Assembly: GCF_003546865.1 (NCBI RefSeq)
Contig: NZ_CP023434.1
Span: forward strand, 682,001 to 746,000
Length of the DNA: 64,000 nt
Source: Suicoccus acidiformans
GTDB lineage: Bacteria; Bacillota; Bacilli; Lactobacillales; Aerococcaceae
Direction: 5' to 3'
The notes under the pieces are model-generated. The model was not told the DNA's origin. It made no database searches and was given only the letters and a program-made list of their open reading frames with translations. This document shows, piece by piece, positions 41,884-46,895 of this stretch. A program made the translations under genes and the position numbers. Every line of letters starts with the position of its first letter. Positions within the stretch are counted from its first letter, which is position 1.

Positions 41884-43662
41884 ATGACAGAAAAGATGGT
41901 AAAAGCCGGTGTTGCAGCTTTACAGGTATTAGAAGGCTGGGGTGTAGATACGATATATGGTATTCCATCAGGAACTCTTAATTCCTTGATGGATGCACTC
42001 GCAGATGATTCACATCAGATTGACTTTATTCAAGTCAAGCACGAAGAAGTAGGCGCAATGGCTGCTGTGATGCAGCAGAAGTTTGGTGGTAAACTTGGGG
42101 TCGCTGTGGGGTCGGGTGGACCTGGGGCGTCTCATTTAATTAATGGCTTATATGATGCGTACATGGACGGGATTCCTGTTGTAGCTATCTTAGGCTCACG
42201 TCCGCAAAAGGAACTCAATATGGATGCTTTCCAAGAATTAAACCAAATGCCGATGTACGATCATATTGCAGTATATAATCGCCGGGTGGCTTATGCCGAG
42301 CAGTTGCCGAAGTTGGTTGATGAAGCTGCCAGACACGCCCTGGCTTATAATGGCGTAGCAGTCTTAGAAGTGCCTGGTGACTTTGGCTTCGTTGAAATCC
42401 CGGAAGACAGTTATTACTCATCTGGACCAAGCTATCAAGAACCTGCCCCAATTCCAGCAGATGAAGAGCGCATTCAAGCAGCTGCTGACATTCTTGCTCA
42501 AGCCGAACGTCCGGTAATTTATGCAGGAATAGGGACAATGGGCGTAGGCGATAAAGTAATGGAACTTTCCCGGAAATTGAAGGCTCCGTTGATTACTACC
42601 GGGAAGAACTTTGAAACCTTCCAATGGAATTATGAAGGGCTTCTTGGCTCGATTTACCGGGTAGGGTGGAAGCCAGCCAATGAAGCTATTTTAGAAGCCG
42701 ATACAGTACTCTTTGTAGGCTCAAACTTCCCTTTTGCCGAAATTGGAGGAACTTTCCGGAATATTGAACGATTTATTCAAATTGATAATAATCCGGCCAT
42801 GCTGGGTAAACGTCACGCAGCGGATGTTGCGATTCTGGCGGACGCTGGCCTTGCCTTGGATGCCCTTCTAGCAGTAATTGATGAAGTAGAAGAGACGCCT
42901 TGGTGGCGAGCAAATATTGCGAGTGCTAAGAATTGGCGCGACTACTTAACGAAATTAGAGACGAAGGAAGCCGGCAATTTGCAATTCTACCAAGTATACC
43001 ATGCAATCAATAAATATGCTGATACAGATGCGATTTACTCCATTGATGTTGGGAACGTAACGCAGACATCAATTCGTCATTTGAAAATGACGCCAGCAAA
43101 TATGTGGCGGACATCACCACTTTTTGCAACGATGGGTATTGCTTTACCAGGGGGTATTGCAGCGAAGCGGACTTATCCTGAGCGCCAAGTATGGAATCTA
43201 ATGGGTGATGGGGCATTCTCCATGACTTATCCTGATGTGGTGACGAATGTGCGCTATGATTTACCGGTGATTCATGTGGTCTTTGCTAATAATGAATATG
43301 CCTTCATTAAGAACAAGTATGAGGATACGAATGAGACCACGTTTGGGACGGACTTTACGGATGTTGATTACGCTAAGGTTGGTGAGGCCCAAGGAGCTGT
43401 CGGTCTGACAGTCAATCGTATTGAGGAGATTGATCGTATCGTGGAAGAGGCAGTTGCTTTAAATAAGGCAGGCCGAACCGTTGTCATTGATGCTAAAATT
43501 ACGCAAGATCGACCTATTCCTGTTGAGGAATTACAACTAGATCCTAAGCTATACACGGAAGAAGAAATTACGGCTTATAAAGCGAAATATGAAGCCGAAG
43601 CATTGAAGCCTTTCCGAGAGTACCTTGAGGCAGAAGGTTTAGCAAGTCGTTATATTTCATAA
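41884..43662 (+). CDS. spxB: Pyruvate oxidase (H2O2-forming)
   Basis: 592 aa ThDP- and FAD-dependent enzyme: pyruvate + phosphate + O2 to acetyl-phosphate, CO2 and H2O2. N-terminal Pyr domain ([20 protein letters not shown], catalytic Glu in [13 protein letters not shown]), FAD domain in the middle ([19 protein letters not shown]), and the C-terminal PP domain with the ThDP motif [16 protein letters not shown]. The overall sequence is very close to streptococcal SpxB. AGGAGG at 41868-41873 selects ATG 41884 over ATG 41875. Located next to the glycolytic operon but with its own transcription. No catalase gene is in the window. Confidence 0.95.
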
Positions 43663-43848
43663 GGGACACCATTAAAGACTGCCCAGTGCAATCTAAACTC
43701 CCCCAAGATTATACATCTCAATGAACATAATTATGACTGAACCTTGATGGAACTGCATTTTTCAGCAGACGTTGAATAATTATACAATGCGGTTCAGTGT
43801 TATGATTTTTTGAAAGGTAAATTTCGCCTTATACTCACAAAATTACAC

Positions 43849-44207
43849 AAATAAATAATTTACGAAATCATTCGAAAGCTTTTCCCGCAAGAACAGGATG
43901 ATCTGGCGTATATAAGAGCCTTGGAGCGTAGCTGATGAGACGGTTGTTGCTTTCATGCGTAAGTAAGTGAAGCGACTTAAGCTCTGAGCTTCGGCTTCGC
44001 CTACGCCTACGCACTTGAGTCTCTAGGCATTCGTTTCACGAATACTAAGCCACTCATCTTAGCATGCCAAGACGCAAGCCTCTTGCCAAACAAGGGCTGG
44101 AGTCTGCTATGGGCTTCTTCGAATCGGTCTTTGCTGAGTTAGACTCCTAAGTGTGTTAGAGGTCCTTGCAGGAAAATCTTTTGAATTATGGAGTAAATTA
44201 TTTATTT
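43849..44207. repeat. Element bounded by 46-bp imperfect inverted repeats
   Basis: 43849-43894 and the reverse complement of 44162-44207 match at 38 of 46 positions by hand alignment, beginning with 15 identical bases. Looser similarity extends outward (TTATAC at 43829-43834, GTATAA at 44222-44227, and CACAA blocks). The 267-bp centre is richer in G+C than its flanks and can form several hairpins. No ORF. It may be a MITE-like remnant or a structured RNA with a long terminal stem. Confidence 0.6.
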
Positions 44208-44293
44208 TTATTTCTTGTGTTGTATAAACTAGGGAGAATTTACGGTGCAAATGCATTTGGGTGTTTTTTCTGCCTTCTAAGTTGTTAACTAGT

Positions 44294-44321
44294 TGTCACT
44301 CATTTGTAACTCATTTGTAGT
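44294..44321 (+). promoter_or_regulatory. WalR/YycF-like operator before the LysM gene
   Basis: Three TGT hexamers at exact 11-bp spacing: TGTCAC (44294), TGTAAC (44305), TGTAGT (44316). The WalR consensus is TGTWAH-N5-TGTWAH; only the middle copy is perfect. An AT-rich -10 candidate lies downstream near 44327-44337. Confidence 0.6.
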
Positions 44322-44375
44322 ATTAAATATATATAATTTTTTTGATATAAACCATACTCAAAAGGAGAACTAAGT

Positions 44376-46895
44376 GTGGAAAATACATATAATTTGTTAT
44401 CAAAGAAAAATTTAACATACTCAGCCTCTATCCTCGTTGCAGCTTTAGCCTTTGCTGGCCAAGCCTCAGATGTTCAAGCACAAGAAGCAGCCCAAGTGGA
44501 TGCAACTGTTCAAAGTTCCTTAGAAGTGACTACCAGTGAAACTCAAACAGAGACGCCCCAAGCTTCTCAAGTCGGTACTTCAGTAGATAGTGTCTCCCTT
44601 GTGACAGCTGAAGTACCAACGAGTTCAGACGTTGTTGAAACAGGATCCTTAGATATTGAGGAATCATTAGGCCAAGACGTTCAACCAGCCGAAGCCCAAG
44701 CCCAATCGACAGGGATACAAGAGCGTCAAGTTGCCTCCTATGCAGCCACCATTGTCGAACCAGAAGCGACATATACACCGAAACGTCATCAAGTTAAACA
44801 CGGTGAATATTTATATTCCATTGGTCAGCGTTACGGCGTAAGCGTTCAGAATTTAAAGGACTGGAATAATTTAAATTCTAACGTCATCTATAGCAATATG
44901 AGTTTAATTGTGGAGAAACCTGTTGCGAATTCTGTGGCATCAACGCCAGTAAGTCAGACGCAAACTGCACCGGTTAGTACTTCACAAGTAGCACCGCAGA
45001 CCTATACGATTCAACGTGGCGATTACTTAAACAAGATTGCCCGCCAACACGGCGTGAGTGTCGCTGACTTGAAAGCATGGAATAATTTAAGCTCGAACTT
45101 AATTCATCCAAACCAGAAGCTATATGTATCGAATCCAAATGTGAAGCCCGCAGTAAGTAACCAACCAGTAGCGAAGCCACAAGCTCAAGCACCAACCCCA
45201 AGTGCAACGCAAGCTGCCCAAACATACACAATCCAACGTGGCGATTACTTAAACAAAATTGCTCGTCAACACGGCGTGAGTGTCGCCGACTTGAAAGCAT
45301 GGAATAATTTAAGCTCGAACTTAATTCATCCAAACCAGAAGCTATATGTATCGAATCCAAATGTGAAGCCCGCAGTAAGTAACCAATCAGTAGCGAAGCC
45401 ACAAGCTCAAGCACCAACCCCAAGTGCAACGCAAGCTGCCCAAACATACACAATCCAACGCGGTGATTACTTAAACAAGATTGCCCGTCAACACGGCGTG
45501 AGTGTCGCCGACTTGAAAGCATGGAATAATTTAAGCTCGAACTTAATTCATCCAAACCAGAAATTATACGTGTCAAATCCACGGGTACAAGCTAAACCAG
45601 TTAGCCAACCAGAGCCGACAGCACCCAAACCGGTAGCTACTCAAACCCAAGCTGCCCAAACATACACAATCCAACGCGGTGATTACTTAAACAAGATTGC
45701 CCGTCAACACGGCGTGAGTGTCGCCGACTTGAAAGCATGGAATAATTTAAGCTCGAACTTAATTCATCCAAACCAGAAGCTATATGTATCGAATCCAAAT
45801 GTGAAGCCCGCAGTAAGTAACCAACCAGTAGCGAAGCCACAAGTTCAAGCACAAACTCCAAGTGCAACGCAAGCGGTTCAAACATATACAATCCAACGCG
45901 GTGATTATTTAAACAAAATTGCCCGTCAACACGGCGTGAGTGTTGCTGATTTAAAGACTTGGAATAATTTAAGCTCGAACTTAATTCATCCAAACCAGAA
46001 GCTATATGTATCGAATCCAAATGTGAAGTCGTCTCCTGCAGGGTCCGCCCAAGAAACCAAGGGAAGTAATAATGAATCAACTCAAGCACTTACGACACCG
46101 CAAGCGCCAACGCGTGTGGCTCAACCAGCTGCTGTCCCAACTGCACCGAAAACCCATACGGTTCAAAAGGGTGAATACTTATACTTAATCGCGAAACGCC
46201 ACGGCGTATCGGTTGATCAATTGAAACAGTGGAATAATTTGTCATCGAATACACTTTACACAGGTACAAACCTTATTGTGAGTGATCCAACGAATGTTCG
46301 TGGCAATGTTGTGGCTCAAGAGAGTGCGATTGCAGATAAGTCTATGACATATCCTGCTCTTGAAGAGAATGTACGCTTAGCCCGCCAATTAAATGTTCCT
46401 TTCTTATCTCAACATGACCCACGTTGGAAAGACGCACCTTATGGTAATGACGTTAGTCGTACCATTTGGGAGAATGGTTGCGGGATTGTTTCCTTAGCTA
46501 TGGTTGATAGTTACTTCAAAGGCGAGTTATCGAATCCAGCAGATATTACCAAATGGGCTGGTTTACGCCACTATCAAGCGGGTGCAGGAACCAAGTGGAG
46601 TATTTTCCAAGACTTTGCTAATCAATATGGCTACAAGATGGTAAACCACGGGAACAACTTTGACTCAGCAGCAGCTGCTATCCGTAACGGAAGCGTCGGA
46701 ATTACTTCGGTTCAACCTGGTTACTTTATTAACGGTGGTCACTTAATGGTTCTGCGTGGGGTGGATAATGGGCTGGTTTATGTAAACGACCCATATGACA
46801 GTCCTAAGCGGAAGAAGCAAAACTCGTTTAAAGGACATAATGAAAGCTATATGCGCCGTGATGGACGTAACTATTGGACATTTAGTAAAAGTTAA
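44376..46895 (+). CDS. Secreted protein with seven LysM repeats and a C39-like peptidase domain
   Basis: 839 aa. Signal peptide residues 1-35 (cleavage after VQA). A Thr/Gln/Glu-rich region to ~130 precedes LysM domains near 135, 209, 282, 355, 428, 501 and 590, joined by Pro/Ala/Gln linkers. Five central LysM copies are almost identical (core GDYLNKIARQHGVSVADLK). The C-terminal domain from about 672 fits the C39_2 family: Cys702 in WENGCGIVSL and His789 in NGGHLMVLRG, then VNDPYDS. LysM binds peptidoglycan, so the protein should sit on the wall; cleavage of peptide cross-links is plausible but unproven. Start GTG 44376 follows AAAGGAG. Confidence 0.85.
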   Translation: MENTYNLLSKKNLTYSASILVAALAFAGQASDVQAQEAAQVDATVQSSLEVTTSETQTETPQASQVGTSVDSVSLVTAEVPTSSDVVETGSLDIEESLGQDVQPAEAQAQSTGIQERQVASYAATIVEPEATYTPKRHQVKHGEYLYSIGQRYGVSVQNLKDWNNLNSNVIYSNMSLIVEKPVANSVASTPVSQTQTAPVSTSQVAPQTYTIQRGDYLNKIARQHGVSVADLKAWNNLSSNLIHPNQKLYVSNPNVKPAVSNQPVAKPQAQAPTPSATQAAQTYTIQRGDYLNKIARQHGVSVADLKAWNNLSSNLIHPNQKLYVSNPNVKPAVSNQSVAKPQAQAPTPSATQAAQTYTIQRGDYLNKIARQHGVSVADLKAWNNLSSNLIHPNQKLYVSNPRVQAKPVSQPEPTAPKPVATQTQAAQTYTIQRGDYLNKIARQHGVSVADLKAWNNLSSNLIHPNQKLYVSNPNVKPAVSNQPVAKPQVQAQTPSATQAVQTYTIQRGDYLNKIARQHGVSVADLKTWNNLSSNLIHPNQKLYVSNPNVKSSPAGSAQETKGSNNESTQALTTPQAPTRVAQPAAVPTAPKTHTVQKGEYLYLIAKRHGVSVDQLKQWNNLSSNTLYTGTNLIVSDPTNVRGNVVAQESAIADKSMTYPALEENVRLARQLNVPFLSQHDPRWKDAPYGNDVSRTIWENGCGIVSLAMVDSYFKGELSNPADITKWAGLRHYQAGAGTKWSIFQDFANQYGYKMVNHGNNFDSAAAAIRNGSVGITSVQPGYFINGGHLMVLRGVDNGLVYVNDPYDSPKRKKQNSFKGHNESYMRRDGRNYWTFSKS

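Follow-up and report, generated by a model that had tools for sequence, protein, structure and literature searches.

A 553-bp inverted-repeat sequence downstream of a pyruvate oxidase gene in Suicoccus acidiformans, very probably a full-size copy of a dispersed MITE family

In the Suicoccus acidiformans genome, the intergenic region that follows a pyruvate oxidase gene displays a long imperfect inverted repeat that encloses a GC-richer centre. The region lies in a 64,000-nucleotide stretch of contig NZ_CP023434.1, referred to here as the window, and all coordinates are window positions unless described as own-genome positions. A preliminary description left two readings of the repeat, a MITE-like non-autonomous element or a large structured RNA of a new kind, with a long terminal stem closing it. 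Protein-less mobile repeats of the former kind are common in bacteria. The question is thus whether the locus is a mobile repeat, an RNA, or a palindrome without any family.

The two arms first noticed, 46 nt each at positions 43849–43894 and 44162–44207, are complementary at 38 of 46 positions (83%) and are 267 nt apart. In 200 dinucleotide-preserving shuffles of 43500–44600 the best 46-bp arm pair shows a mean of 26.1 matches and a maximum of 31, and none of the 200 reaches 38. The GC content of the centre is 49.1%, compared with 30.4% and 26.1% in the arms, 39.8% in the whole element and 42.5% in the window. There is no open reading frame of 50 aa or more with a start codon inside the element, and the stop-to-stop frames visible on the minus strand of the region reach about 55 aa at most. 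An Rfam search gives no family at the gathering score over the window, nor at E ≤ 1 over 43600–44400. The arms, the GC-richer centre, the lack of an open reading frame in that centre (for start-codon frames of at least 50 aa) and the absence of known-RNA hallmarks, all put forward in the preliminary description, are therefore borne out.

The genome consists of one contig of 2,572,159 bases, and about 40 related loci (an approximate count) are found in it. Positions 43829–44227 (399 bp) used as a query give 26 matches, of which many are fragments that belong together in one copy, and matches longer than 100 bp show 72–87% identity to the window copy. A 221-bp query from another copy gives at least 40 matches (the best 40 of 48 candidates scored), and the locus list was completed with queries from the left stretch of the window copy, a right end and a short copy. 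A left-end model based on sequence alone and derived from an alignment of 23 copies matches the genome 33 times at E ≤ 1 and 28 times at E ≤ 1.2e-5; five of these 28 are absent from the copies on which the model was trained. Both ends are kept in 14 of the copies read, with sizes of 73–553 bp, and 10 of these 14 are 250 bp or shorter and are without most of the core. A one-off chance or decayed palindrome, which would have no family, is refuted by the dispersed copies, and together with the shuffle tests the approximately 40 loci leave it a negligible probability.

Alignment of the copies also shows that the window copy is larger than first described. It extends from 43692 to 44244 (553 bp), beginning with TCTAAACTCCCCC and ending with GGGAGAATTTACG, and the end sequences of the family are TCTAAACTCCCCC and CGTAAATTCCCCC; the tips of the element are TCTAAAC and CGTAAAT. 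The window copy matches the end consensus at 67 of 74 positions on the left and 36 of 39 on the right. The boundaries given initially, 43829–44227, were too narrow and take in the inner part only. An outer TTATAC/GTATAA match that had been reported beyond the arms is part of a wider inverted repeat. The parts of the window copy are as follows.

43686–43691, no strand: left target-site duplication, GTGCAA, identical to 44245–44250.
43692–44244, plus strand: complete 553-bp copy, very probably of a MITE, with both family ends and with related copies dispersed in the genome.
43692–43730, plus strand: left terminal inverted repeat, aligned over 43694–43730 and assessed by shuffled local alignment.
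43731–43816, plus strand: left subterminal module, defined by copy alignments and left-end model matches.
43817–43894, plus strand: inner left arm, the last 46 nt of which (43849–43894) are the arm first noticed.
43895–44161, plus strand: GC-richer centre, 49% GC, with no open reading frame of 50 aa or more and a length that varies among copies.
44162–44207, plus strand: inner right arm, also as first noticed.
44208–44244, plus strand: right terminal inverted repeat, which runs on directly from the inner right arm and is supported by an alignment of 19 right ends.
44245–44250, no strand: right target-site duplication, GTGCAA, from a flank comparison over 14 complete copies.

The terminal inverted repeats are imperfect and approximately 37 bp long. 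Positions 43694–43730 align with the reverse complement of 44208–44244 with a local alignment score of 19, which shuffling the left stretch 2000 times never reaches. The right end is also complementary to 43817–43845, a match equalled by 13 of 2000 such shuffles; the right end thus has two pairing partners on the left, namely the actual terminus and the inner arm, which lies some 120 bp inward of it. The part of the left subterminal module up to about 43767 is the best conserved segment of the left end and is present in short copies of 100–200 bp as well. Positions 43772–43788 in this module, and the equivalent place in several other copies, carry an imperfect CCTTGTATAATTATACAAGG-type palindrome.

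The window copy is bordered on both sides by a perfect 6-bp direct repeat, GTGCAA. For each complete copy (14 in all), the k bases immediately preceding the left end were compared with the k bases immediately following the right end, with 20,000 permutations. At k = 6, with the element ends set by eye from the consensus ahead of the duplication test, 60 of 84 positions match as compared with a permuted mean of 47.2 (p = 5e-5); the same 14 copies give no significant matching at k = 3, 4, 5, 7, 8, 9 or 10 (lowest p 0.069). Four of the 14 display a perfect 6-bp duplication, GTGCAA in the window copy, CTATAA in two copies and CTTTAA in one, and in five copies only 2 or 3 of the 6 flank positions match. 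Among left flanks with an L score above 60, 19 of 25 end in AA, several of them as TATAA. AT-rich and mostly intergenic sites, direct repeats that fade with age, and transcripts with stable stem-loops are described as usual for MITEs (PMC10969869).

The locus therefore shows terminal inverted repeats, dispersed copies, a target-site duplication of fixed length and an intergenic location, which are characteristic of MITEs. MITEs are bounded in size at a few hundred bp; the copy here is 553 bp, the 14 complete copies span 73–553 bp, and the window copy, which lacks an open reading frame of 50 aa or more, carries no transposase gene. Dispersed copies with target duplications had been proposed as the finding that would favour a MITE, and both were found, in about 40 loci and with a 6-bp duplication. 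Thus the feature is, with high probability, a full-size copy of a MITE family, the relic of a non-autonomous DNA transposon, and the first of the two original readings is the one supported.

The other reading is that of a new large structured RNA, either a free-standing gene or an element of the pyruvate oxidase 3′ untranslated region, with a long closing stem and with the copies representing RNA genes. RNA folding of 43780–44280 gives a z-score of −5.05 relative to 100 shuffles, and the GC-richer centre contains several predicted short hairpins; but such strong folding would be anticipated for long inverted repeats in general. Over nine copies, the arms pair in 75.8% of 314 cells, compared with 38–47% when the partners are slid by 1–3 columns. 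Such an excess is to be expected for any inverted repeat picked from the window copy, and it is no evidence for a MITE either. With random partners the pairing is 76.4%. Among the 46 arm pairs in nine copies, pairs changed on both sides number 3, as against 3.4 in shuffled data, and 29 depart solely through non-pairing cells. The arm covariation score is 0.045, with 0.053 for shuffled partners and 0.022–0.042 for the slid controls.

In a consensus fold of five copies the covariation term is unfavourable (+3.92), and 4 of the 60 pairs show both-sided changes. The absence of most of the core from 10 of the 14 complete copies and the lack of an Rfam match also argue against an RNA, and a simple scan gives no terminator-like site. 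Covarying stems, the finding that was to favour an RNA, give no compensatory signal: no compensatory base changes in the closing stem are seen beyond shuffling over the nine copies, which are paralogues, so that selection at one single locus may remain. The arms have decayed independently, with no compensation detected, which is the behaviour of old terminal repeats. After folding, the Rfam search, the pair counts over aligned copies and the five-copy consensus fold, the structured RNA was rejected, and we consider it very unlikely.

The placement of the copies was examined for 39 intervals, two of which are halves of one interrupted copy; left-end matches at own-genome positions 1796280 and 1021781 and a weak fragment near 2350621 were left out. 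Open reading frames were called with a simple caller at 90 aa or more. No overlap with such a frame is found in 35 of the 39 intervals, two overlap by 5–15 bp, and two hit frames of 90–100 aa that are possibly spurious. The flanking genes are convergent in 15 intervals, co-directional in 21, divergent in 2 and undetermined in 1, whereas 87 element-free gaps from the stretches around the copies comprise 15 convergent, 52 co-directional and 20 divergent. Fisher tests give p = 0.012 for the enrichment between convergent genes and p = 0.020 for the depletion between divergent genes, both uncorrected and based on the crude caller. For BOX, RUP, SPRITE and IS elements an excess between convergent genes has also been described, and is ascribed there to weaker selection downstream of genes (PMC3049150).

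The window copy begins 29 bp past the stop codon of the pyruvate oxidase gene, for whose product the nearest solved structure is 1v5e (E = 2.8e-298), and ends 131 bp ahead of another gene. The predicted protein of the latter (44376–46895) has seven LysM stretches, several of them nearly identical and in tandem, and a C-terminal C39-like peptidase domain. Since the copy starts so close to the stop codon, it is probably carried in the 3′ untranslated RNA of pyruvate oxidase, without a required function.

Copies at gene 3′ ends might also have been co-opted as transcript-end or RNA-stability elements, a role suggested for SPRITE at gene 3′ ends in pneumococcus (PMC3049150). The enrichment between convergent genes, the depletion between divergent ones and the position of the window copy, whose long hairpin would be transcribed, are in keeping with such a role; but the same placement is expected if selection simply eliminates upstream insertions, the decay of the arms is uncompensated, and the window copy shows no terminator-like hairpin followed by a T-run. 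Co-option of this kind is therefore regarded as unlikely.

Copies of the MITE family were also sought in other genomes. A DNA search of 40 other genomes at E ≤ 0.001, with at most the 15 best candidates scored in each, gives no match. The genomes of the taxonomic family that were searched number 76, S. acidiformans being the sole member of its genus among them, and the left-end model applied with stricter filters gives no convincing match in the other 75. Six of these show a single weak left-end match each (E 0.002–0.006). Three of the six, situated inside long open reading frames of 224–462 aa, were discounted as chance; the remaining three are no more convincing and were likewise discounted, although chance is unproved for them. 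A blastn search of plasmids and phages with a second copy and a search of viral contigs with two exact patterns give no match. An exact 20-base pattern run over genome contigs, a scan insensitive to diverged copies and possibly lacking the record of the host itself, hits two records, by title a Hyphomicrobiales MAG and a candidate-division MAG. No description was found in literature on Aerococcaceae or Aerococcus with MITE or repeat. The family is so far seen in this one genome and appears undescribed, though its kind is well known.

A coding remnant was a further candidate, since the centre of several copies yields, in single frames, the readings ...QDDLAYIRALERS and ...QELESAMGLFEAVFAELES. 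These frames are short, and are altered or interrupted in other copies, so the readings were treated as chance.

The genome was further searched for transposases with PF00872, PF01609, PF01610 and PF00665, and no autonomous partner sharing the ends was found at the own-genome loci whose ends were compared, chiefly the 15 PF01609 loci by alignment and three PF00872 copies by eye. Three IS256-type genes (PF00872) are interrupted by in-frame stops or split frames, at own-genome positions 501249–502384, 898185–899326 and 2291306–2294927. By eye, the ends of these broken copies are vaguely similar to those of the MITE family over the first 25 bp or so, a loose likeness with no clear match. The usual duplication of IS256-type elements is 8–9 bp, unlike the 6 bp seen here. 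For the 15 DDE_Tnp_1 (PF01609) loci, 60 end comparisons were made, each against 10 shuffles. None exceeds the best shuffle by more than 4, and four exceed it by 2–4; some of the stretches used may stop short of the ends.

Matches to ISL3-type (PF01610) and rve (PF00665) transposases number 15 and 40, respectively. An ISL3-family IS with a 440-aa transposase splits one right-half copy at about own-genome 1126874–1128346. This locus was considered as a long copy with its own transposase, a reading that was rejected, the IS having inserted into a copy; the copy is therefore older than that insertion. Identical scores are seen for 13 of the 15 PF01610 matches, which suggests a recent spread of the ISL3-family element. 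An rve-type IS beside one copy was rejected as a partner when its ends did not match. The rve IS around own-genome 246050–247290 has a frame of approximately 320 aa and an apparent direct repeat of about 26 bp, GGTTTATTTGCTAAATAGTGCACAAT, on both sides, and by eye it lies just upstream of a putative FMN riboswitch. Its long duplication resembles that of IS1202-like elements.

It is conceivable that the family is a genome-specific MITE mobilised by a transposase type new to these ends, the 3′-end hairpin copies being kept as transcript-end or mRNA-stability elements, but this combination is given a low probability.

RUP of Streptococcus pneumoniae is about 107 bp long and makes a TA duplication. 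The MITE family here, compared with it by description only, reaches 553 bp, with a 6-bp duplication and different ends. The likeness to RUP lies in a short, non-coding sequence with terminal inverted repeats, a tight fold when transcribed and an excess between convergent genes (PMC3049150). Like BOX of the same species, the family is modular, length-variable and dispersed, with extensive secondary structure and some long copies (PMC3049150). BOX is described as built of boxA, boxB and boxC modules, of which boxB may be missing or multiple (PMC3049150), whereas the core here is shortened and not multiplied; this comparison again is by description only.

A history of the MITE family may be proposed. 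A transposase acting in trans would have recognised the ends and cut out or copied the element, which would then have entered intergenic, AT-rich target sites, often resembling TATAA, through staggered cuts with a 6-bp offset. Insertions at promoters would have been removed by selection, and the shorter copies may have formed by internal deletions with the ends kept. The imperfect terminal repeats together with the long inner inverted arms could form a large imperfect hairpin. The identity of only 72–87% in matches longer than 100 bp suggests that the family is old and probably inactive.

For S. acidiformans, the feature is thus in all likelihood an ordinary mobile repeat and not a new RNA class. 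The delimited family, with its end and duplication consensus, is usable for annotation masking and for transposase hunting. It would have greater importance only if the copies at gene 3′ ends affect gene expression.
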